From positions 1-64,000 of the forward strand of contig DAOUQF010000009.1 in assembly GCA_030625815.1 (NCBI GenBank): a DNA stretch of 64,000 nt, given 5' to 3'. The DNA is from Eubacteriales bacterium. GTDB lineage: Bacteria; Bacillota; Clostridia; Tissierellales; GPF-1. The notes under the pieces were generated by a model. The model searched no databases, had not been told where the DNA came from, and saw nothing but the letters and a program-made list of their open reading frames with translations. The position numbers were made by a program, and so were the translations under genes. This document shows positions 50,920-62,374 of this stretch, piece after piece. Each line of letters begins with the position of its first letter. Position 1 is the stretch's first letter.

Positions 50920-50969
50920 ATACCAAATTTTGGGGTATTGATAACTCGGATAGATTGGAGGCGTGTCAC

Positions 50970-51755
50970 GTGATTCCAAATTGGAAAGAAATTTTAATTG
51001 TATACGAGCAAGCGGTTGATGAGTTGAAATTGAAGTTCAAGCGAATTCGAAAAGAATTTCGCGCCATGGATGAGTATTCTCCTATCGAATTTGTTACGGG
51101 TCGAGTCAAAGAAATCAACAGCATCATCAACAAAGCGAATTTGAGGGGAATTCCCTTGTCGGATGTGGAAACGGGCATTGAAGATATTGCAGGCATTCGA
51201 ATCATGTGTCAGTTTGAAGATGACATCCATCGCGTAGTGGATCTGATCAAGAGCCGTTATGATATGGAAGTGGTGGAAGAGCGGGATTATGTGACGAATC
51301 ATAAGGAGAGCGGATACCGCAGCTATCATTTGATTATTCGCTATCGCGTGAATACCGCGCATGGAGTGAAACCTGTATTGGCCGAGATTCAGATTCGAAC
51401 CCTTGCCATGAACTTCTGGGCGACGATCGAGCATTCCTTGAATTATAAGTTTGATCAGCAGATTCCGGAGCATATCAGCGAGCGACTGCAGGAGGCGGCT
51501 GAAGCGGTTTATAATCTGGATCGACAGATGTCGCAGATTCGGGAAGAGATTATGGATGCGCAAGAACTGTTCGCATCCGGCGCTCATCTGGTGGAGGATT
51601 CCTTGAACATGCTGCAGAATCTGTATATGTCGGGCAATGTGGATGAGATCGACGAGCTCTACGATGAATTTATGGTCTTGCAGAAGAAAGGCAATCTGAA
51701 GGATCTGAGGGAATTCCGTCAGAGACTGATTGTCACAACAAAAAAACAATTTTAA
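50970..51755 (+). CDS. Small alarmone synthetase (RelQ-type GTP pyrophosphokinase)
   Basis: Makes (p)ppGpp from ATP and GDP/GTP, cytoplasmic. 261 residues from GTG 50970, 8 bp after TTGGAGG. The TTG at 50955 overlaps the RBS and is rejected. The RelA/SpoT synthetase domain occupies about 45-180: IEDIAGIRIMCQFEDDI, RDYVTNHKESGYRSYHLIIRY, EIQIRTLAMNFWATIEHSLNYK. No hydrolase, TGS or ACT domain is present. The helical C-terminal tail (about 180-260) is typical for the tetrameric RelQ class. It may be co-transcribed with asnS (50-bp gap). Confidence 0.92.
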   Translation: MIPNWKEILIVYEQAVDELKLKFKRIRKEFRAMDEYSPIEFVTGRVKEINSIINKANLRGIPLSDVETGIEDIAGIRIMCQFEDDIHRVVDLIKSRYDMEVVEERDYVTNHKESGYRSYHLIIRYRVNTAHGVKPVLAEIQIRTLAMNFWATIEHSLNYKFDQQIPEHISERLQEAAEAVYNLDRQMSQIREEIMDAQELFASGAHLVEDSLNMLQNLYMSGNVDEIDELYDEFMVLQKKGNLKDLREFRQRLIVTTKKQF

Positions 51756-51758
51756 GAA

Positions 51759-51795
51759 AAGCTGGGTTGACGTTAGTCGACCCAGCTTGTTTTTA
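51759..51795. terminator. Terminator overlapping the end of the convergent gene
   Basis: AAGCTGGGTTGAC / GTCGACCCAGCTT, 13 bp with one G-U, GTTA loop, then TGTTTTTA. The 3' arm doubles as the last codons of the minus-strand gene ending at 51773. Confidence 0.85.
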
Positions 51796-52834
51796 TCTCG
51801 TTTGCAAGATTTCTCGCGTATTCGGCAGCCTGAAATTCGATATTCGACCGTTCCAGAATCGCATTTTTGTCGTTGGCCGTTGCCGTTAAGGAAAATTGTG
51901 GCGGCAGCCGGAATGTCTTGTTGATATTCAGGGCGCTGATCAATTGATGCTGGAGGCATTCGGAACCCGAATTGCCCGAGACGACAATGCCGAAGAGACT
52001 TTTGTTATAGAAATTATGGGTTCGAAACAAGGCCGTCATGCGATTGACGGTTGCCGTCAGATTGGCCGATAAGGCATCGTTGTAGTTGGGGCAAATCCAT
52101 AGAATGGCGTCGGCCTTTAGGATGGCGGGATAGATCTCCTCTACCATCACGCCCCCATAGAAACAGCGCATCTGTTCGCCAAAATGCTTGCAGGTGGTGT
52201 AGGGACAGCCGATGCAATCACGTACCGTTCCGTTTTCAATATGGATCTCTTGCACACGCACCGCTTGCGGAAGATTTTTCTTTACCAGCGCCCATAATTG
52301 CAGGGTGCTGGAGGTGTGAGCGTTGCTTGCGTGAAGAACCAAGAGAGAGGGATGGCTTTTTTTGACGGGGTTATCCGCCACCAGCCGAGCCACCAGATGT
52401 TCGCATTCAGTAACGCAGATCTCCTGGCGGGTTTTGTGTTTGACGGTCTCCATCAGTTTCCAATTGACGAGGTCTTTCGCGGCCTCGACAACGGGTCTTC
52501 CCATAAACCGGCATCCCAATTCATTGGCGCGGAGGATCAAGTCTACGGCAAAATCCCGGCTGTATCGTTCCGAATCGCTGTGAATCAGAATCGCCGCTTC
52601 GCTCTGTGCGAGGGACCTGGCCGTTGGATCCAATTGCATGAAAAAGGTGGATAATTCCGGACAGAGATTCCAAGCATTGACTTGGATTGCAAAGAGGATC
52701 CTTGCGTTCTGCAAATCCGGCAGAGGTTTCCCGGCCTGAAAGACGCCATCGGGATGATGGGTCCAAGCGGCGTCGAGCATGCGTTTCAATTGTAGCGAGG
52801 ATTCTCCGATCTGAATGATGTAGAAGGGTTTCAC
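51773..52834 (-). CDS. NADPH-dependent FMN reductase-like flavoprotein with extra N-terminal domain
   Basis: 353 residues. The C-terminal part (about 160-320) is flavodoxin-like: LLVLHASNAHTSSTLQLW matches the FMN phosphate loop, ADAILWICPNYNDALSANL the second loop and GIVVSGNSGSE a later one. Cysteines at 207, 210, 215 and 224 (CIGCPYTTCKHFGEQMRC) resemble the cluster region of iron-sulfur flavoproteins, but the spacing differs from the usual compact motif. Residues 1-155 form an additional domain of unknown type. Last gene of a three-gene minus-strand operon, overlapping the dehydrogenase-like gene by 4 bp. Confidence 0.7.
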   Translation of the reverse strand: MKPFYIIQIGESSLQLKRMLDAAWTHHPDGVFQAGKPLPDLQNARILFAIQVNAWNLCPELSTFFMQLDPTARSLAQSEAAILIHSDSERYSRDFAVDLILRANELGCRFMGRPVVEAAKDLVNWKLMETVKHKTRQEICVTECEHLVARLVADNPVKKSHPSLLVLHASNAHTSSTLQLWALVKKNLPQAVRVQEIHIENGTVRDCIGCPYTTCKHFGEQMRCFYGGVMVEEIYPAILKADAILWICPNYNDALSANLTATVNRMTALFRTHNFYNKSLFGIVVSGNSGSECLQHQLISALNINKTFRLPPQFSLTATANDKNAILERSNIEFQAAEYARNLANEIKTSWVD

Positions 52835-54078
52835 AGGATCGCCTCCAGTCTGCGATGGGTTTTTTTGAGTCTTTCCATCAACGAGGATGGAAGAGTCAGA
52901 CGCTCGAATTCAACGCCGCTGTCCAGCAATTGATTGGCGGCGCCGAAGTACACGCCCCCAAGGAAATTGGCGCTCAAGTGCCAGTCGCCCCGGATCATGG
53001 AAAGAATGGACAGGGCGCCGGAAGAGAGTGCTGGAGCGATATAGGGCTTAAACCCCGTTTCGCGAACCAAGTGATTGGCATTCAGGGTGGCTTCCGTCAG
53101 CAATAGGCTTTTGTCTTCCTCGTATTGAGTGATGGAATTGGCGACAACAAGTCCCTTTCCGTGAGGACCGTAGGCGCGTCCGTGGGTTAAAAAGTCGGGG
53201 TCGCCAACGGTGGATTCCGCCAAATACGCAGCTCGCGCATACATGACCCCCAGGCCGAAGCCGTGGATCTGTTCGGGACGCAGCCCTTGAAAATCCAAAT
53301 GGTTCTGGTTCGTGTTGCTGTCCAGATAAGCCGACAGGCAAAGAGGATCGACGGGATCGGAAATCACGCAGAACTCTCCCTGAAAATTTTGCAGTCTAGC
53401 CATCTGCGCGTACTCTTTTAGGATCTTTCGATTGCCTTCCAGTTGTACCATGCGTACGTCGCCGGAGGTTTGAGACAGGGGCGGGATGCCCTTCGAGGCG
53501 CAAAATACAAAGTAATCGCCATTGAAGACCTCTTCTTTTTCAATGGCCCGGACCCGTGGAGTCTGTTTGGTCTGTCCAAAGGAGAGGATCTGATTGGTCT
53601 CCAGAACGAACCGCCGCTGCTTTTCGGGGCTTCGGTCATAGACGCCGATTTCCTCGATGCAATCTCTTCCCGTCAGGCACAGGCCAATCAGAAGGGTGCT
53701 GCCCACATCTCCCAGGGCGACAAGATTCAATCGGATTTTCTTGCGCTTCCGAGGGGAGGGCGATACAAGGCGCTCCCATTTTGGCCATGCCAGATTGATG
53801 GCGCGGCTGGGAAGTCCCTCGGGAACAAAGTCGATCAGCGAGGAAGCCGGAGGAGACGGGGTGTTCAGCCGCTCCAAGGTATCGTGGTCGACGAGGGTCT
53901 CTCGCTGTATGAGGGGAAATTGCACCGCGTTCTTCCTCGGGTCGCCGGAGAAGAATATGATGGCTTCTTTGGTTCCCTTTGGAAATCGGGGAACCAAGTA
54001 TTCCTCCCATTCGGGGACGGGTTGATCGGCGATGCAGCCGATGTTTTTATCCGCTAGATGATAGAAGTAGGGTCTCAT
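52831..54078 (-). CDS. Atypical lactate/malate dehydrogenase-like protein
   Basis: 415 residues. After an unassigned N-terminal region (1-112), a Rossmann core starts at LNLVALGDVGSTLLIGLCLTG (about 117-137), with Asp148 (GVYDRS) at the NAD-selective position. VISDPVDPLCLSAY (about 239-250) parallels the NPVD loop and GRAYGPHGKG (about 300-309) the catalytic-His GEHG motif of the family. The substrate-binding Arg motifs of true lactate or malate dehydrogenases are not obvious, so the substrate probably differs. Coupled by 4-bp overlaps to both neighbours. Confidence 0.65.
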   Translation of the reverse strand: MRPYFYHLADKNIGCIADQPVPEWEEYLVPRFPKGTKEAIIFFSGDPRKNAVQFPLIQRETLVDHDTLERLNTPSPPASSLIDFVPEGLPSRAINLAWPKWERLVSPSPRKRKKIRLNLVALGDVGSTLLIGLCLTGRDCIEEIGVYDRSPEKQRRFVLETNQILSFGQTKQTPRVRAIEKEEVFNGDYFVFCASKGIPPLSQTSGDVRMVQLEGNRKILKEYAQMARLQNFQGEFCVISDPVDPLCLSAYLDSNTNQNHLDFQGLRPEQIHGFGLGVMYARAAYLAESTVGDPDFLTHGRAYGPHGKGLVVANSITQYEEDKSLLLTEATLNANHLVRETGFKPYIAPALSSGALSILSMIRGDWHLSANFLGGVYFGAANQLLDSGVEFERLTLPSSLMERLKKTHRRLEAIL

Positions 54079-57000
54079 TTTTCCTCCTGAGTAAAGAGTG
54101 ATTGAATGCGTTTTAAGTGCGCCTGATCGTATGCGATATACTCGGATACCTTCAGGGAAGAATCATATTCCAATAAATCGCTGCGATCCGGGAATCGCGG
54201 GGAGGAGAAGATCTCGCCCAAGTTGGTGATGCACAGGGCGCGATCATTGAATCGCTGGTATTCACGTTCCAAGGTGCGGAAAATTTGATAGGTGTTCTTT
54301 AGGACGGTTTCCGATAACTTGTAGATTGCGGACACCGGCGCCTCTTTGATATAGCTCGGCGAGGCATAAGGCAAAATAAAATTCACCGATGGAATCATAT
54401 TGGATTTATAATCGGTCATTCGTTCAACGGCATCTCCTCCGATAAAGGGGTAGAGGATGCTTTCGTTAAACCAAACATTCAGATTGGGAACAAAGTATGC
54501 GGATTCCACATCCAATTCTTGCAACTCCATCAGTTCTTGCCCCTGGCTGGAAAGGATGCCTACGATGGTTTTTTCCACGCGAACGTCATGCTGGTTGAAC
54601 TTTGGCTGAATCGCCTTGATCCGGTATCCCTTGTGGAGAATATCATCAATCAGGAGAACCGGCCGTTTAAAGGACTTCAGCATGCGGATCTGTTCATCCA
54701 AACTGAGGTAATACGGGGTTTGGTGAATATAAAATGAAGTCGCATCGCCCTTGTAGGTCTTCTCCGTATGGAGGGTTTTCGTCGCCGTATTGGGCACGAT
54801 CCGTCCCTTGAGGATGGAGCCGTATGGCACGCATAGATTTGGTCCCAAGGTGCGAACGGGTCCCTGGACGAGATCGACATGGTTGTTGCGGCAGATGATC
54901 TCCATCAGTTTTTCATTCATAATCTTTCGGTCAACGGTCAAGAGCAATTGTCCCGGATAAAGGGCAACCATGGCTTCCCTGAGGGCATCGCGGCTTTTGT
55001 GGATGGCGCGAATGACCTTTGGATTGTTGCGGTAGGGTTCCTTCAACAGCGCCTTCATATTCAAGTACAGGGTGCTCGGGTGTGTCATGGAAACCAGATA
55101 GATCGGCGATTCCGCTTCCTCGGATTCCTGTGGAACCGAGACGAATCCCTGGAGCTTCAGGATCTTGTAGTTGCGTTCATCGATTGCCGGATGATGAAGG
55201 GGCTCATGATACACCGCCGAGGTGTAATCCTTCTGCAGTGTGAAACTCAGGGTTTCAGTCAAAAGAATTTGTCCCAGATGGCGATACGGAGATCCTGTAT
55301 GGGTATAAATTCCGGCGATCAGGGCAATTCGGCCGACAGCTTTTTGACGAATGAAGTCAGCGGCAGTGTGATCGTGGAATTCTCGGAAAATCATGGAGTT
55401 TCTCAACCAGCGGAAGGGAACTGCTCCAACGATGGTATCCCCTTTTGTCTCTCGTGCAATCAGAAGTCTGGCGCTGTCCAAGGTGAAGAAAGACTTCAGG
55501 TCTATAGGGAAATCGCCAAATTGACTGCGGAGTTCCGAGATGGTTTCATAGCGAAATTCCTCAATGATTTCAAATTTCAAGGTGCGGGTGGATACCGGTG
55601 ATTTCATTTGCGGTTCATGTCGGTAGAATCCGCGCGCCATAATGTATTTTTGCGCAAGGGGATCGATCATCATGGAAACATCTCGGTTTTGATCGATGTA
55701 TTTGCGGATCTGGGTGGAGGAAATATCTTCATATTCCTCTGGCAGACAGAGCCGCACCGCCGGCTCTTTCATTCGATCCAAAAACGGTTCGAGGGGATCG
55801 GGATCTACCCTGTCGCAATTTCTCTCAAAGATGACATGAGGGAAATCAAAGATGGAGAATTCATCCGTCGTGGCATAAGCGGATGCGTGCAGAATAACAT
55901 CGCTTCCCACAACGATGGAAATGGGATCCTCTCCGTAGCAATTCTGCAGTTCCTTCAGATCTGTCTGATTTGCAATATTCACAGACAGGGAAGACGGGAA
56001 GAGATAGATGTTGAGTTCATCGGCAATGGACATATCGATGATGTTTCTGCGAATCATATTGGGTTGCGTCCGCTTGGACCAAGAGAATTCATCCACCGCC
56101 AAGAAAACCTCATAGCCCATATTTCGAATATTTTCCGCAATCTTCTTGTGCGAGATGGAGAAGGGATCAAAGGTGCCCGGGAAGAAAGCCTTTTTTTGAT
56201 TGGTAAAAACAGGAACTTCTCGGTTGCTGAATTCGTAGTCCGCGATAAATCGATAGATGTGGTTCAAGGATACGGAATCATTCAGCCGGAGCAGATCCGT
56301 CTGGCGGCCCGTGGCAGCCAGAACCAGCATCTTCTTCGCGACAATGGATAACAGATTTTGTTTTTCGTTCATGTTTAATTTGTTTGATCCGAAGACATCC
56401 TTGCCAAGGACCAGAAATGCTTCGCGTTTCACTTCTTGATCAAAGTTCACAAAGCTGCTTAAGAGGATGCTGACCATTTGAACCAAACGGCGTTTTAAAA
56501 CCTCTTCGGTTTCATGAAATCGCGGACCGTATTGGGCATAGTTCTGTATACAAACCCCGATGGTTTTTAGTAGCAAGACGGCAATCTGCTGATTGGAAAC
56601 CTTGGTTTTTTCGACGAAGTCATTGATGATTTCATCCAATTCCCTGGGCTGCAAGTGGAGCATAACCTTGCCCAAATAGCGGGGGATAAAGTTGGTGAAT
56701 TGAAAGTTCTCCATCTCTAGAGCGCGGAGGAGTTCGACGGTTACATCGTTTTTTTGTTCCTTGCTCAGATAGGGGAAAATTTCCACCAAGGCGATCCCTG
56801 CATGATTTCGCACATTCTCCACTTCGCTTACCTTCAGGAGGTTGCAAAAATGGATAGCCGTATGAATTTTGTCGATATTTGGGAATCCAGCGATTAAAAA
56901 ATCAGCCAGCAAATGTACGTGAACCTTTTTGAACACCCATGGAGTGGCTGTTTTCAGGTTTTGCAGATAGATATCAGAAAGATCTTCGCCGTCAACGAGG

Positions 57001-58946
57001 CAAATTGCATAATAGTGTTCGACTACGGTTTTCGGCACCCGGATTCTCTCGGCCAGTTTAAAGCGAAGATAATTTTCGGCGGGATCCTTCGATGCATCAA
57101 CCTTGCGTTTTAGGATTCGTCCGAGTTCATCGATAAACCATCCTTGATTGGGCACCTTGTTTACCAGATTCCAGATTCGTTCCAAGGCCGTTATACGGAT
57201 GATGCGTTCTGGATCAGTCAGGGCGCCCAGCAAAAGGCGCAGGGGCTGAATCATCACAGATTCATCGAAGTTTTTCATGGGAATTCGCTTGATGATCTGC
57301 ATCAAGTAGAACTTGGTCCGGAAGATCGAGAAATTCGCTTTGGTGTAATTGGACAATACGATCTTTCGATAGGCGTCCAGCTGTCCCTTTTTCGCCTGTT
57401 GGAAAAGGGTGGCCAGCATCACGCGCAGATTGTGGGTGATCCAGATCTGATGCTGTTCAATCAATTGTGGATCCGGATGCAGGATTTTTTGGATGTAGCT
57501 GTTCAGCAATTCATCGCTGCCGTAGAGAGTTTTTGGCAGATTTGCATTTTTCGGAATTTCCTTTCGGTATTCCTCATCGAAATTGGCGATTAGCATGCCA
57601 ATGATCCCCGCGGCTTGTCGGCGAATGTCGCCATCCTTATTGGTTAAAAGATCATACAAAAATTGGATGGTGATCAGTTTTTGGTCTTGGGTGAGGTAGG
57701 TGGTGTATTCCTCTAAGACCTGCAGATAACCTCGAAGTTTCTGAGGGTCGCTTTCGCTTCGCGCTTGTTCCAAGATGCTGCTCAAGGATCCGACGGATCG
57801 GAAATTATGCATCAAATCGATATTGTGGCGAATGGCCATAAATTTGATGTTTTTAATCACTTCTTGATGATGCATCAGGGCGTAATGGCGAATGGGAGCA
57901 GGCTCTTGCGGCACATGTTCCAGATTGAGGTTGACATTCTGGTCGCGCAAGAAGGATTCAAAGTCGTTCAGCTTTGCATAGACCTTTCTGTAGCGATTTG
58001 CCTTTGTTTCATCGACATTGTCGAGTTTGTTTAATATGATGTCGAAGGCTTCATCCAAGGAGAAGATGTGCATCTGGCGCTCTCCATTGGGAAGGATTCG
58101 GTTTTTTACGCGAAAATCGCAGTAGATTAAGAGCAAGGACTCCAAAGGCAGGTTTTCCAGCTCCAGATCCCAGGTGGAATGATTGGTTGCGATATGGCCG
58201 ATATAGAGCAGGTCGTGGCGCTTGGTCCATTCGTCCGTGTAGAAGTAATGGAAATAGGGCACGCGCTGCAGGCACTTACCCGTGCAGCCGAATTTGCCGA
58301 TGTCATGGGAGGCGGCGGCGCCGGAAACAACCCCCAGGTCCACGGGAATTCCCAATTGGAAACATTGGCGGCCGATATGAACAGCCAGGGAATGCACGCC
58401 GGAAATATGGTGGATATTGTTGTGGCGAGTCAATTCGAAATGGAGCTTCATCAATTCGTACACCATGTCATGATCAAAGGCGGCTACGAATTTGCGGTAC
58501 TCGTGTCGGTTGATGATCATTTCATCCTCAACGGGCAAAAAATCCAGGCGATAATCGAAGGGAGTGCGTTCCGTTTCCTTCTCGACTTCGCAAAAGAAGC
58601 GGAAGAAGTGAATGAACAATTCCGCGGCCAGTTCAAATTGAGGAGAAAATTCGATTTCGATGCTGGAAGGATAGGCGCGTTTGAGGACGACTTGATAGCA
58701 ATAGGCGAGCCAGTCATCAGGCGGCTGCCGCTTGGAAAGATCGTAAAGAATGGGTTCGCAAAGCGAAAGAACGGAGCGGCCCGAATAGTCGTGCTGGGTG
58801 CAGATTCGTTCGAAGTGTTGTTTAAAATCATGAGCTTGAATCGATAATTGAATATAAGCAGCTACATCTTGATTTTCTGTGAGCCACTCGAGGTGATCGA
58901 AAGATTGAACAAAACGCTGATATTGTATCGAGGTAGTTTGATTCAT
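54075..58946 (-). CDS. Giant fusion: HD domain, helical repeats, NadD-like nucleotidyltransferase, PRTase-like domain
   Basis: 1623 residues, no signal peptide. Residues about 150-330: HD phosphohydrolase with His185, His214-Asp215 (ASHDIGKFG), HIATNH (251-256) and Asp277. Residues about 395-890: repeated amphipathic helices, HEAT/ARM-like. Residues about 918-1105: NadD/cytidylyltransferase fold with GTFDPFSISHKKI (924-936; only the second His of HxGH is kept) and ISSTQIRKYI (1075-1084). Residues about 1120-1275: possible GNAT-like. Residues about 1350-1510: type I PRTase-like with VLLIDDILHKG (1430-1440). GAGGAGG precedes the ATG. It heads a three-gene operon with coupled stops and starts. 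A function in nucleotide or NAD-like cofactor chemistry is inferred. Confidence 0.85.
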   Translation of the reverse strand: MNQTTSIQYQRFVQSFDHLEWLTENQDVAAYIQLSIQAHDFKQHFERICTQHDYSGRSVLSLCEPILYDLSKRQPPDDWLAYCYQVVLKRAYPSSIEIEFSPQFELAAELFIHFFRFFCEVEKETERTPFDYRLDFLPVEDEMIINRHEYRKFVAAFDHDMVYELMKLHFELTRHNNIHHISGVHSLAVHIGRQCFQLGIPVDLGVVSGAAASHDIGKFGCTGKCLQRVPYFHYFYTDEWTKRHDLLYIGHIATNHSTWDLELENLPLESLLLIYCDFRVKNRILPNGERQMHIFSLDEAFDIILNKLDNVDETKANRYRKVYAKLNDFESFLRDQNVNLNLEHVPQEPAPIRHYALMHHQEVIKNIKFMAIRHNIDLMHNFRSVGSLSSILEQARSESDPQKLRGYLQVLEEYTTYLTQDQKLITIQFLYDLLTNKDGDIRRQAAGIIGMLIANFDEEYRKEIPKNANLPKTLYGSDELLNSYIQKILHPDPQLIEQHQIWITHNLRVMLATLFQQAKKGQLDAYRKIVLSNYTKANFSIFRTKFYLMQIIKRIPMKNFDESVMIQPLRLLLGALTDPERIIRITALERIWNLVNKVPNQGWFIDELGRILKRKVDASKDPAENYLRFKLAERIRVPKTVVEHYYAICLVDGEDLSDIYLQNLKTATPWVFKKVHVHLLADFLIAGFPNIDKIHTAIHFCNLLKVSEVENVRNHAGIALVEIFPYLSKEQKNDVTVELLRALEMENFQFTNFIPRYLGKVMLHLQPRELDEIINDFVEKTKVSNQQIAVLLLKTIGVCIQNYAQYGPRFHETEEVLKRRLVQMVSILLSSFVNFDQEVKREAFLVLGKDVFGSNKLNMNEKQNLLSIVAKKMLVLAATGRQTDLLRLNDSVSLNHIYRFIADYEFSNREVPVFTNQKKAFFPGTFDPFSISHKKIAENIRNMGYEVFLAVDEFSWSKRTQPNMIRRNIIDMSIADELNIYLFPSSLSVNIANQTDLKELQNCYGEDPISIVVGSDVILHASAYATTDEFSIFDFPHVIFERNCDRVDPDPLEPFLDRMKEPAVRLCLPEEYEDISSTQIRKYIDQNRDVSMMIDPLAQKYIMARGFYRHEPQMKSPVSTRTLKFEIIEEFRYETISELRSQFGDFPIDLKSFFTLDSARLLIARETKGDTIVGAVPFRWLRNSMIFREFHDHTAADFIRQKAVGRIALIAGIYTHTGSPYRHLGQILLTETLSFTLQKDYTSAVYHEPLHHPAIDERNYKILKLQGFVSVPQESEEAESPIYLVSMTHPSTLYLNMKALLKEPYRNNPKVIRAIHKSRDALREAMVALYPGQLLLTVDRKIMNEKLMEIICRNNHVDLVQGPVRTLGPNLCVPYGSILKGRIVPNTATKTLHTEKTYKGDATSFYIHQTPYYLSLDEQIRMLKSFKRPVLLIDDILHKGYRIKAIQPKFNQHDVRVEKTIVGILSSQGQELMELQELDVESAYFVPNLNVWFNESILYPFIGGDAVERMTDYKSNMIPSVNFILPYASPSYIKEAPVSAIYKLSETVLKNTYQIFRTLEREYQRFNDRALCITNLGEIFSSPRFPDRSDLLEYDSSLKVSEYIAYDQAHLKRIQSLFTQEEK

Positions 58947-58976
58947 CGGTAGCCTCCTCTAGTAGATTTCACTATT

Positions 58977-59022
58977 ATTATATAATAATTCCGGTGAATT
59001 TACAGGCTCTTTCCAGTTTTTT
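58977..59022 (-). promoter_or_regulatory. Candidate promoter of the giant-fusion operon
   Basis: On the minus strand TATAAT (58982-58977) with a weak -35 (TGTAAA about 16 bp upstream), roughly 30 bp before the start codon. Confidence 0.4.
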
Positions 59023-59057
59023 TGCAGTTTCTTACACAACAGACGAAATGGGAAAAC

Positions 59058-59068
59058 TATGGTATAAT
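59058..59068 (+). promoter_or_regulatory. Extended -10 promoter of the 59.1-kb gene
   Basis: TATGG-TATAAT, an extended -10 with perfect hexamer. The -35 region is poor. It is divergent from the giant-fusion operon. Confidence 0.6.
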
Positions 59069-59095
59069 AAGGGAAAAGTAAGGGGGGAAAACGAC

Positions 59096-59680
59096 GTGGA
59101 ATGGCAAATTGAAGCAATCGAAAAGCGGATCTATCAATTGAAGTTTTCGAAATCAAATTATGAACGCTTGGAATCCATTCGCTCGTCAATTTCAGCCCTG
59201 GAAGAACTGCAAGAAATGATTGAACGGGAAGAGGCATGTAAAAAGAAAGAAGAGGTTCCCAAGATTCGAGAGGGAATCGTTGAAAAAGTGATGGCGGAAA
59301 TTGAGTTTGTCTACAAGCCGACCCTGAAAGACGATATCTACGAGAGCGATTACTTGGAGCAGTTTTCTCAACTCCGCCGTGCGGACCTGGTCTTGTGCGG
59401 AGCATTGGAAGTGTTTAATGAATTTTGGACGGCGAATTCCGTTGAATTCGGGAATGTGTTTGCTTCCTTGCCGGCAAAGCTGGTGGGGGAAGAAAAGGCG
59501 GAAAATTTAATTGCGTTGGGATGGCAGCGGACCCATGTTCGCTTGTATCTTGCCAGCGATGTGCAGCTGAGTGAGATCTATCGATCCTGCGAGCGCGCTT
59601 TTCCGGATTATTTGATCGTAAAGGAAAACAAGGGAAGCCGATTTATTATCTTGGAATATTTGATTCGCAAAAGTGAATAG
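59096..59680 (+). CDS. Hypothetical protein with coiled-coil N-terminus
   Basis: 194 residues from GTG 59096, 9 bp after AGGGGGG. A frame from 58994 includes the promoter and is rejected. Residues 1-75 are charged and helical (IEAIEKRIYQLKFSKSNYERL…ALEELQEMIEREEA), likely coiled coil. Residues about 85-194 are a mixed domain (YESDYLEQFSQLRRADLVLCGALEVFNEFW…RLYLASDVQLSEIYRSCERAFPDYLIV). No family recognised. Divergent from the giant-fusion operon, with 150 bp between the start codons. Confidence 0.7.
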   Translation: MEWQIEAIEKRIYQLKFSKSNYERLESIRSSISALEELQEMIEREEACKKKEEVPKIREGIVEKVMAEIEFVYKPTLKDDIYESDYLEQFSQLRRADLVLCGALEVFNEFWTANSVEFGNVFASLPAKLVGEEKAENLIALGWQRTHVRLYLASDVQLSEIYRSCERAFPDYLIVKENKGSRFIILEYLIRKSE

Positions 59681-60618: not shown

Positions 60619-61425
60619 TTATAAGAATTTATTTTTGATATTGGACCAAAAATGATGTTCATGGGTTGTCAATCGCGTTAATTTGCGGTCGGAGACCCAA
60701 AATTTCAGGTTTGTAATGTCTCGGTAGGTCAATTGAACGCCGTCGACAACGATGAGAATCGAGTTTTCATCCCGGTATTCCGGAATCAATTCAATGGTCA
60801 TATTGAAGGGGACGATCACGCTGTTGGTCAGGGAACGATACACCCGTGAATTGATGGGAGCCAAAGCGGTCATTTGAAGCACGCCCAGAGTCGGGTAAAC
60901 CAAGCTGCCGCCGGCGGACATATTGTATGCGGTGCTGCCCATGGGGGTGGAGATGATAATCCCGTCGCCGGAATAGCTTTCCAATGTCTCATCGCCAATA
61001 TTGATATTGAGATGGATGACCTTGGAATTGATCCCTTTGATTACAATCTCGTTGATTCCTGTCAGGGGAATGCATTTGTCCTCGGTGCAGACTGCGCTTT
61101 CGACCAGATAGAGTTGTTCCAATTGAAAATCATCATTTTGCAGATGGTCGACCAAACGATCGATGTCTTTGGGACAGAGTTCCTGGAAGAATCCAAGATG
61201 TCCGGTGTTGATGCCGATAAAGGGAATATTCGGGAAGTCGACTTCCTTCATGCCAATTAAAATAACGCCATCTCCGCCAACACAAATATTGAGATCTGCA
61301 TCATTGTCATAGGCTTCGGCCACATTAAAATTTGCTGCGAGGAGTTTTTCGCGCAGTTTATCCACAACGCGTTCTGAAGTTTTTTGAAAATTGTGCAGGA
61401 TATTGATTTTCTGGATTTTTCGCAT
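60619..61425 (-). CDS. nadK: NAD kinase
   Basis: Phosphorylates NAD+ to NADP+. 268 residues. GGDG at residues 50-53, the GINTGHLGFF block, GDGIIISTPMGSTAYNMSAGGSL and the beta-sandwich C-terminal half match the compact Firmicutes NadK. AGGAGGAG precedes the ATG. It is divergent from the RluA-type gene. Confidence 0.95.
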   Translation of the reverse strand: MRKIQKINILHNFQKTSERVVDKLREKLLAANFNVAEAYDNDADLNICVGGDGVILIGMKEVDFPNIPFIGINTGHLGFFQELCPKDIDRLVDHLQNDDFQLEQLYLVESAVCTEDKCIPLTGINEIVIKGINSKVIHLNINIGDETLESYSGDGIIISTPMGSTAYNMSAGGSLVYPTLGVLQMTALAPINSRVYRSLTNSVIVPFNMTIELIPEYRDENSILIVVDGVQLTYRDITNLKFWVSDRKLTRLTTHEHHFWSNIKNKFL

Positions 61426-61469: not shown

Positions 61470-61501
61470 AGGGAAAGTTGAAACGAAAGAAAGGAACGAT
61501 T

Positions 61502-62374
61502 ATGAAAGAAGATTTTCGCTTATCAATTAAAAAAGAATACGCTTCACTACTTGAAGCATTGGAAGACTTAATGGGAATTTCAGGCCGGCAATTTCGCCGC
61601 ATGATCCGCCAACGTCTGGTGGAGATTGATGGAGTCTTTCCCACCCGCCCGGGAGCGATTCATCCGGGGTCGGTGATTGCCATTCGATTCCCCGATGAAA
61701 CGATTGAATATCCGGCGGAGGCGATTCCACTGGATGTGCTCTACGAAGACGAGGATATGTTGGCGGTCAACAAGCCGCCCTATATGTTGACGCATCCATC
61801 GAGAGAGGTGTTTACGGGGACGCTGGCGAATGCCATTGCGGGGTATTTTCAACAGACGGGCTTGAAGCGAAAAGCGAGATTCGTGAATCGACTGGATATG
61901 AATACCTCCGGGATTGTATTGATTGCCAAGCATTCCTACGCCCATCAGCAATTGAGCGATCAGGAAAAGATCAAGACCTATCAAGCCTTGGTGGAGGGAA
62001 CGCCCCCCGCGGAAGGGCTGATTGAGGCACCCATTGCCAGGGATTCGATTGAAGGCTCTGTGAAGCGAATCGTTCATCCCGATGGAAAGTCCTCGAAGAC
62101 CGGGTGGAAGTGCTTGGATACCAATCATGGGATTTCCCTGCTGGAGGTGCGCTTGTATACGGGAAGAACCCATCAAATCCGCGTGCATCTCAGTTATAAG
62201 GGTTGGCCGATTTTGGGGGATTCGCTCTATGGCCATGAGAAAATGGCACCGCGTCAGATGCTTCATGCCGCAAGTCTGGAGCTGAAATCCATTCGGACCA
62301 AGGAACCCATTTTCATTGAAGCGTCGGTTCCCGACGATTTTATGAAAATATTGACAGATTGTAAAACCCTGTAA
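61502..62374 (+). CDS. RluA-family pseudouridine synthase
   Basis: Isomerises uridine in rRNA or tRNA. 290 residues from ATG 61502 after AAAGGAACG; the in-frame TTG at 61478 has no RBS. An S4-like N-terminal region (about 15-70; SGRQFRRMIRQRLVEIDG) is followed by the RluA catalytic domain with VNRLDMNTSGIVLIAK (catalytic Asp) and TGRTHQIRVHLSYKGWPILGD. The target site cannot be told from sequence (RluD/YjbO/YlyB-like). Confidence 0.92.
   Translation: MKEDFRLSIKKEYASLLEALEDLMGISGRQFRRMIRQRLVEIDGVFPTRPGAIHPGSVIAIRFPDETIEYPAEAIPLDVLYEDEDMLAVNKPPYMLTHPSREVFTGTLANAIAGYFQQTGLKRKARFVNRLDMNTSGIVLIAKHSYAHQQLSDQEKIKTYQALVEGTPPAEGLIEAPIARDSIEGSVKRIVHPDGKSSKTGWKCLDTNHGISLLEVRLYTGRTHQIRVHLSYKGWPILGDSLYGHEKMAPRQMLHAASLELKSIRTKEPIFIEASVPDDFMKILTDCKTL

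Follow-up and report, generated by a model that had tools for sequence, protein, structure and literature searches.

The stretch of DNA analysed here (the window, 64,000 nucleotides) comprises positions 1 to 64,000 of contig DAOUQF010000009.1 from assembly GCA_030625815.1 of a Eubacteriales bacterium (Bacillota, Clostridia, Tissierellales). It features a gene for a giant fusion protein of 1623 amino acids (P0001, 54075..58946), followed by the genes of two partner proteins, all three on the reverse strand. The first partner is a dehydrogenase-like protein of 415 amino acids with the fold of lactate and malate dehydrogenases (LDH/MDH; P0002, 52831..54078), the second an FMN_red-fold flavoprotein of 353 amino acids with four invariant Cys residues and a GTG start codon (P0003, 51773..52834). 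The P0002 gene overlaps the fusion gene by 4 bases, and the P0003 gene overlaps the P0002 gene by the same length. A preliminary description of this DNA had reported the open reading frame (ORF) of 1623 residues at 54075–58946 and treated it alone, overlooking the partner genes at 51773–54078.

The fusion ORF starts with ATG, six bases behind a Shine-Dalgarno-like AGGAGG (58953..58958, reverse strand). Orthologs in two other genomes of the genus are full-length and share 92% and 89% identity with P0001, while full-length orthologs in other families of the order share 40–50% (39–49% by BLASTP). The ratio of nonsynonymous to synonymous substitutions (dN/dS) against the two same-genus orthologs was calculated to be 0.041 and 0.039 for the whole chain, with 0.136 as the highest value of any domain; these ratios are rough, most dS values being near or above 1. 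The ORF reported earlier is a genuine, intact gene under purifying selection and not a chance open frame.

For comparison of the family, 80 loci from named genomes were used, which are a subset of at least 478 confirmed stretches (two search patterns were applied per gene, so stretches do not equal genes). An alignment of 78 rows contains the window protein and 77 of the 80 orthologs (L101, L107 and L125, shorter than 1570 amino acids, were dropped), and addition of six divergent members gave 84 rows. The most divergent of these 84 sequences is 32% identical to the window protein. Named carriers among the 80 loci include Alkaliphilus, Caloramator, Fervidicella, Tissierella, Sedimentibacter, Fusibacter, Acidaminobacter, Anaerovorax and several Clostridium. 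A few of the loci were deposited as Atribacteria or Calditrichales, labels that are unconfirmed.

The sample of the order consisted of 60 genomes, including the source genome. Matches to the fusion were obtained in 46 of them, but in 6 of these through ordinary NadD alone, so that the fusion itself is present in 40. In G007 and G021 it is divided between two contigs. P0002 and P0003 were each found in 39 of the 40 fusion genomes and in none of the 20 fusion-less genomes. This count leaves out weak matches to other dehydrogenases or reductases (for P0002 in G035 and a second one in G038; for P0003 in G030, G042 and second matches elsewhere). The sole fusion genome lacking the partners is G020, in which the fusion gene is cut by the contig end. 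Around the gene, 32 loci of the 39 other carriers in the order were read (L054 has only part of the fusion); gene order and strand are constant, with L047 ending before P0003.

Of the 80 loci from named genomes, 72 contain P0002 and 64 contain P0003. Six of the eight loci without P0002 end at or just past the fusion gene, and 11 of the 16 without P0003 end too early. With starts set mechanically, the beginning of P0002 overlaps the fusion stop or lies no more than 100 bases from it in 67 of 72 loci; the other five distances are 198, 294, 298, 450 and 5365 bases. The fusion is inherited as a unit with P0002 and P0003, usually in adjacent position.

Outside the order, the C-terminal half was matched over the full model length in 24 of 291 genomes of the class. 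Two of these 24, G209 and G251, have two copies of this half, the second scoring lower. Eight of 398 genomes of the phylum feature the fusion and the same eight have P0002. Six of the eight lie outside the class and harbour all three genes, in G656 with the partner genes on a different contig from the fusion. The fusion is carried by many anaerobic Clostridia-type bacteria and by other classes of the phylum. An architecture search in other genomes had been proposed with the preliminary description; the same fusion proved to be widespread, so it is not unique to the source genome. A role as a sporulation gene was considered and rejected: 27 of the 40 fusion genomes and 13 of the 20 fusion-less ones have SpoIIIAE, which was not found in the three genomes of the source's own genus.

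Structures were predicted with AlphaFold (AF2) in two overlapping halves, each from a 60-sequence alignment. The model of residues 1–912 yielded a predicted local distance difference test value (pLDDT) of 89.8 and a predicted template modelling score (pTM) of 0.86, the model of residues 908–1623 values of 87.5 and 0.87. The predicted domain order is HD, HEAT superhelix, NMNAT/NadD fold, GNAT fold and, as the probable last domain, a type-I phosphoribosyltransferase (PRTase) fold. HEAT, NadD-like and GNAT folds are predicted with confidence. The domain list given earlier thus holds, its HEAT and NadD parts being well supported and its HD and PRTase-like parts less so, but the GNAT-fold domain had been overlooked. 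What had been described as about 500 residues of helical repeats is a HEAT/ARM-like superhelix of about 545 residues (approximately residues 365–910; 56217..57854, reverse strand as all domains of the chain). It was recognised in the AF2 model, by fold matches over residues 373–910 and by Pfam HEAT, which at E ≤ 0.1 matches 25 of 38 family members, the lowest E being 4.6e-8. Its top fold matches are mostly eukaryotic scaffold or transport proteins.

The putative HD domain covers residues 130–345 (57912..58559). The pattern H..HD..H..H..D, formed by H180, H214-D215, H233, H256 and D277, is the same in 84 of 84 sequences, in line with the intact HD residues noted before. In the available part of PMC8177086, this pattern is described as marking a dinuclear site like that of YqeK. 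The assignment is based on the invariant motif together with weak family matches: at E ≤ 0.1, Pfam HD was detected in 20 of 38 family members, the best E being 9.5e-5, and gave no match to the window protein itself, while a profile search of the PDB with the HD region gave no match at E ≤ 1. Comparison of the region with the genome's own YqeK by hhalign yielded P 0.0028 and a probability of 11%, with the H..HD motif in register (unrelated control P 0.35). The fold search of the 1–912 model was dominated by HEAT matches and barely covered residues before 373.

The NMNAT/NadD-fold, adenylyltransferase-like domain comprises residues 917–1109 (55620..56198). Its predicted model aligns to 4rpi_B over 186 residues with a Z-score of 17.5 and a root mean square deviation (rmsd) of 2.7; PF01467 was found in 60 of 60 family members at E ≤ 0.1, and NadD models match residues 917–1110 of the window protein. 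D927, H933 and D1016 are invariant in all 84 sequences and correspond by motif to Asp13, His19 and Asp109 of E. coli NadD, the mutation of which lowers activity according to the accessible part of PMC1249556. In the ISS..R motif, S1077 and R1081 were observed in 84 of 84 sequences and S1076 in 83. The GTFDP…SH and ISSTQIR pair of the preliminary description is present, with H933 and R1081 invariant. The first residue of the T/HxGH motif, however, is never His: its position reads SxSH in 49 sequences (the window protein included), SxGH in 14, TxGH in 12, TxSH in 8 and SxRH in 1, so that the T form of T/HxGH is found in 12 of 84 and the H form in none. The YT.DT stretch and the Trp of four canonical NadD proteins, which we take to be the segments around the nicotinate site, are replaced in three aligned fusions, and Y1024 stands at the Trp position in 84 of 84.

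The fusion was also considered as the cell's NadD and rejected. In the order sample a canonical NadD scores above the TIGR00482 cut-off of 112.45 bits in 60 of 60 genomes, whereas the domain in the fusions is far below it (42.3 bits in the window protein; 32–59 bits overall, with a maximum of 59.4 and the lowest value from a protein truncated by a contig end). The source genome encodes a canonical NadD-YqeK pair at G000:C3, as well as NadC and nicotinate phosphoribosyltransferase (NAPRTase). With the YqeK model (TIGR00488) at E ≤ 0.001, G000:C3 was the only match in this genome and the fusion was unmatched. The HD and NadD parts had been likened to YqeK and NadD; they resemble them, but the canonical pair is encoded elsewhere in the genome.

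A second, redundant enzyme of NAD synthesis, acting as another nicotinate mononucleotide adenylyltransferase, is disfavoured and highly improbable given that every genome of the sample has its canonical NadD at scores the fusion domain does not approach, and that the source genome also has YqeK, NadC and NAPRTase. Apart from the NadD model matches to residues 917–1110, this explanation could draw on NadC, which is rarer with the fusion and might be read as having been replaced. NadC above its cut-off was found in 10 of 40 genomes with the fusion and in 13 of 20 without it (Fisher p 0.004, uncorrected for kinship), and kinship may explain the difference. NAPRTase, present in 25 of 40 and 15 of 20 genomes, shows no tie comparable to that of NadC.

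Most mycoplasmas have NadD and YqeK in a single fused protein, the HD part of which cleaves nicotinate adenine dinucleotide and wrong-base analogues, as stated in the accessible part of PMC9426524. This published function of an HD and NadD pairing, and the fact that the NMNAT-fold domain is nearest to NadD in fold and profile, would fit proofreading or damage control, in which the fusion remakes or removes incorrect or damaged pyridine dinucleotides and the redox partners repair reduced or oxidised forms. We consider this rather unlikely: the segments presumed to surround the nicotinate site of canonical NadD are replaced in the three fusions aligned, with Y1024 at the Trp position in all 84 sequences, and both the PRTase-like domain and the 415-residue LDH-like protein would be left unexplained.

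The GNAT-fold domain spans approximately residues 1122–1288 (55083..55583), and its predicted model aligns to 2r7h_B over 141 residues (Z-score 12.9, rmsd 3.0). The acetyl-coenzyme A (CoA) loop R/QxxGxG/A was found in 0 of 78 sequences of this domain. With this loop lost, at least one fold of the chain is probably non-catalytic.

Residues 1312–1535 (54342..55013) probably adopt a type-I PRTase fold, as judged from Foldseek, conserved segments and weak PF00156 matches. With Foldseek, the region matched the uracil PRTase 6wn8_C (E 9.7e-5, template modelling score 0.40 of the target, rmsd 11.6). In a second structure search with the 908–1623 model, the matches listed were filled by NadD; the 50 matches listed from a viral structure library had mostly NadD- and GNAT-type names, with an adenine PRTase and a UMP synthase also present and several entries bearing no name. 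Comparison by hhalign yielded P 0.0011 and a probability of 21% for E. coli Apt, and P 0.042 and 1.3% for Hpt (control P 0.49). Conserved segments read VP.G, PNT.TK and D(D/N).L..G.R. The last of these represents the phosphoribosyl pyrophosphate (PRPP) loop, noted earlier as LLIDDILHKG and conserved in form across the 84 sequences: D1434, G1440 and R1442 are each present in 83 of 84, position 1435 is D in 75, N in 8 and E in 1, and the window protein has both Asp residues of the acidic pair. A Rosetta-stone search for the domain outside the fusion gave matches in 10 of the 398 phylum genomes at E ≤ 0.01. Eight of them lie in frames of 1573–1667 amino acids, and the remaining two are marginal (one at E 0.0014 in a frame of 35 residues containing three stops, the other at E 0.006 in a frame of 309 residues), so that no free-standing relative turned up in this sample.

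The Rossmann part of P0002 matches lactate dehydrogenases (profile E 3e-10), with a score below the LDH/MDH Pfam cut-off (23.8 versus 27 bits). By motif, P0002 keeps the two active-site Arg residues (R209, R282) and the invariant His of the HG motif (H306). The catalytic Asp-His pair is incomplete, since all 42 sequences examined have Met (M279) in place of the Asp; the catalytic positions were assigned by what we take to be the LDH numbering. P0003 contains an FMN_red domain (Pfam E 7.5e-19), and its residues C207, C210, C215 and C224, spaced C-x2-C-x4-C-x8-C, are invariant in 41 of 41 sequences. The four-Cys pattern presumably resembles that of the iron-sulfur flavoprotein Isf. A profile search of the PDB with P0003 gave no match at E ≤ 0.1.

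The genes, their linkage and co-inheritance and the conservation of the active-site residues were observed directly. As the best interpretation of these results, with a rough probability of 0.45, we suggest that the three proteins constitute a dedicated assembly in which a small molecule linked to a nucleotide is made, adenylylated and hydrolysed, accompanied by redox steps. The reactions, the substrates and the existence of a physical complex are all inferred, as follows. The PRTase-like domain would join a base or an acid to ribose-5-phosphate from PRPP, the order of steps being likewise presumed. The NMNAT-fold domain would then transfer AMP or another nucleoside monophosphate onto the product, and a compound of dinucleotide type would result. 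Its phosphoanhydride bond, or that of incorrect products, may be cleaved by the HD domain of dinuclear type at the N-terminus, in the manner of YqeK beside NadD. The HEAT superhelix of 545 residues could hold the hydrolase and the synthetic domains together and would probably dock the partners, while the GNAT-fold domain, without the usual CoA binding, may have a structural role or bind a different ligand. Redox steps on a precursor might be performed by the LDH-fold protein and the four-Cys flavoprotein, or these two might be users of the product. The simplest idea uniting all parts would be one nucleotide-linked metabolite, which the three proteins build, adenylylate, turn over, and oxidise or reduce. 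The site residues speak in favour of this, those of the HD and NMNAT-fold domains being invariant in 84 of 84 sequences and those of the PRPP loop varying in 1–9 of 84. The preliminary description had proposed a single complex for both the synthesis and the breakdown of a nucleotide or dinucleotide; this is still the best-supported reading, with the activity presumed and the protein placed in a three-gene unit. A narrower version, which we regard as improbable, is that the operon is devoted to a redox cofactor of its own, similar to NAD, which it both produces and uses. In that case, an unusual ring or acid would conceivably be turned into a mononucleotide by the PRTase-like domain and then adenylylated to a dinucleotide by the NMNAT-fold domain, with the HD domain controlling its level. 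The LDH-fold protein and the four-Cys flavoprotein would, with similarly low likelihood, be dedicated users or ring-shaping enzymes.

Several observations weigh against an assembly that makes and turns over such a molecule. In the PRTase-like region, PF00156 was detected in 20 of 60 family members at E ≤ 0.1, with a best E of 0.0057 and hence no significant sequence match, and the profile search of the PDB revealed no significant PRTase (HPRT, E 0.61). Residues in the pyrophosphate- or PRPP-loop segments are changed in 3 of the 6 divergent members, and the positions which we take to be the usual Thr/Ser of the PRPP loop are Lys and Arg. In the NMNAT-fold domain, the counterpart of E. coli NadD His45 is, as we read the alignment, Ser957, a residue shared by all 84 sequences. 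Both partners are absent beside the fusion despite sufficient room in L065, L127 and G656 (in G656 they lie on another contig), as is P0003 alone in L075, L114 and L115. In the HD domain, the first extra His is found 18 residues past HD, compared to 32 in YqeK. HD phosphohydrolases are described with an Arg approximately three residues ahead of the first His in the available part of PMC8177086. Position 177 of the fusion is Arg in 0 and Thr in 73 of 84 sequences, so that hydrolysis by this domain is uncertain.

The missing phosphohydrolase Arg would suit a regulatory scaffold, in which the catalytic folds are sensors of nucleotides (NAD, diadenosine tetraphosphate, PRPP) and the activity of the two redox enzymes is switched by the HEAT superhelix. 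So would the GNAT fold without its CoA loop, the mostly eukaryotic scaffold and transport proteins among the top fold matches of the HEAT part, and the strict co-inheritance with two redox proteins. However, the residues that contact metal and nucleotide have stayed invariant across deeply diverged sequences, beyond the expected need for sensing, and we consider such a scaffold quite unlikely. HEAT superhelices often hold polymers, and a make-and-remove pair lies within one chain, features that would be compatible with a modifier of macromolecules: the HEAT part would grip RNA or protein, the nucleotidyltransferase and PRTase-like domains would attach a nucleotide or phosphoribosyl group and the HD domain would remove it. 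ORF clustering of the 80 loci, on the other hand, revealed nothing common beyond the three genes, the next clusters occurring in at most 8 of 80. The genomic surroundings therefore do not point to modification of RNA or protein. To our knowledge, no modification enzyme has such a make-up, and the NMNAT-fold enzymes known to us act on small molecules, leaving a macromolecule modifier very doubtful. A defence system was rejected as well: no family of PADLOC-DB 2.0.0 matches any of the three proteins at E ≤ 1, and the neighbours are variable.

The nearest published precedent of the proposed make-and-turn-over assembly is the mycoplasma NadD-YqeK fusion (JCVISYN3A_0380), as far as the accessible part of PMC9426524 describes it. 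Both have an NMNAT/NadD-type and an HD domain in one chain as a make-and-correct pair. In the fusion described here, however, the HD domain is N-terminal and set apart by the 545-residue HEAT superhelix, GNAT-fold and PRTase-like domains are added, the T/HxGH motif is altered, two redox-type partner genes are present, and the protein is not the NadD of its genome. With YqeK (TIGR00488, diadenosine tetraphosphate hydrolase) the fusion shares the H..HD..H..H..D ligands and the genomic tie to NadD-type enzymes, but its HD domain is weakly similar in profile, lacks the Arg ahead of the first His and differs in the spacing of the third ligand. It resembles NadD/NMNAT (TIGR00482) in fold, catalytic D/H/D and ISS..R, and differs by the missing first motif His, the score far below the cut-off and the replaced nicotinate-site segments. 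Similarities to type-I PRTases (PF00156; Apt, Hpt, Upp) are the probable fold, the DD(L/I)L..G loop and the conserved VP.G loop; its own PNT.TK..HTEK segment and the lack of a significant sequence match set it apart. Unlike L-lactate and malate dehydrogenases, P0002 has Met in place of the catalytic Asp and an N-terminal extension of approximately 110 residues, and P0003 is distinguishable from Isf-like FMN_red flavoproteins by its Cys spacing and a conserved N-terminal part of approximately 150 residues.

No characterised protein of this design was known to the preliminary description, and full-text searches of the open literature aimed at this architecture likewise revealed no description of the five-domain chain or of the unit of three genes, a mention elsewhere being possible. 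Since the fusion falls outside NadD and YqeK by their models and no literature description was found, we judge the system to be new; the newness lies in the system, as the single folds each belong to a known superfamily. Its deep conservation and its strict unit with two redox-type proteins in anaerobes point to an undescribed metabolite or cofactor. As another pairing of HD and NMNAT-fold domains, it makes the make-and-correct idea testable beyond NAD synthesis. It also places a HEAT superhelix, best known from eukaryotic scaffolds, within a bacterial metabolic fusion.

In the window, the operon is flanked by a RelA/SpoT-type small synthetase (50955–51755, forward strand) on one side and by an NAD kinase (60619–61425, reverse strand) and an RluD-type pseudouridine synthase (61478–62374, forward strand) on the other. 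Genes of these three types are often grouped in other Firmicutes, and the operon, together with a TauE exporter gene, may therefore have been inserted among them. Between the RelA/SpoT-type gene and the operon end lies a terminator-like stem-loop of 13 pairs with a T-rich tail (51759..51788, forward strand), recognised by consensus match. An ORF of 228 amino acids without a Pfam match at E ≤ 0.001 (58994–59680, forward strand) is divergent from the fusion gene. In 7 of the 80 loci (L089, L091 and five others), two genes that by eye resemble subunits of iron-sulfur L-serine dehydratase are located directly upstream of the fusion, the nearer one ending a few bases from its mechanically set start. 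In L060 (12969–18172), approximately 5.4 kb between the fusion and P0002 are occupied by other ORFs, one of them with ferredoxin-like Cys motifs.

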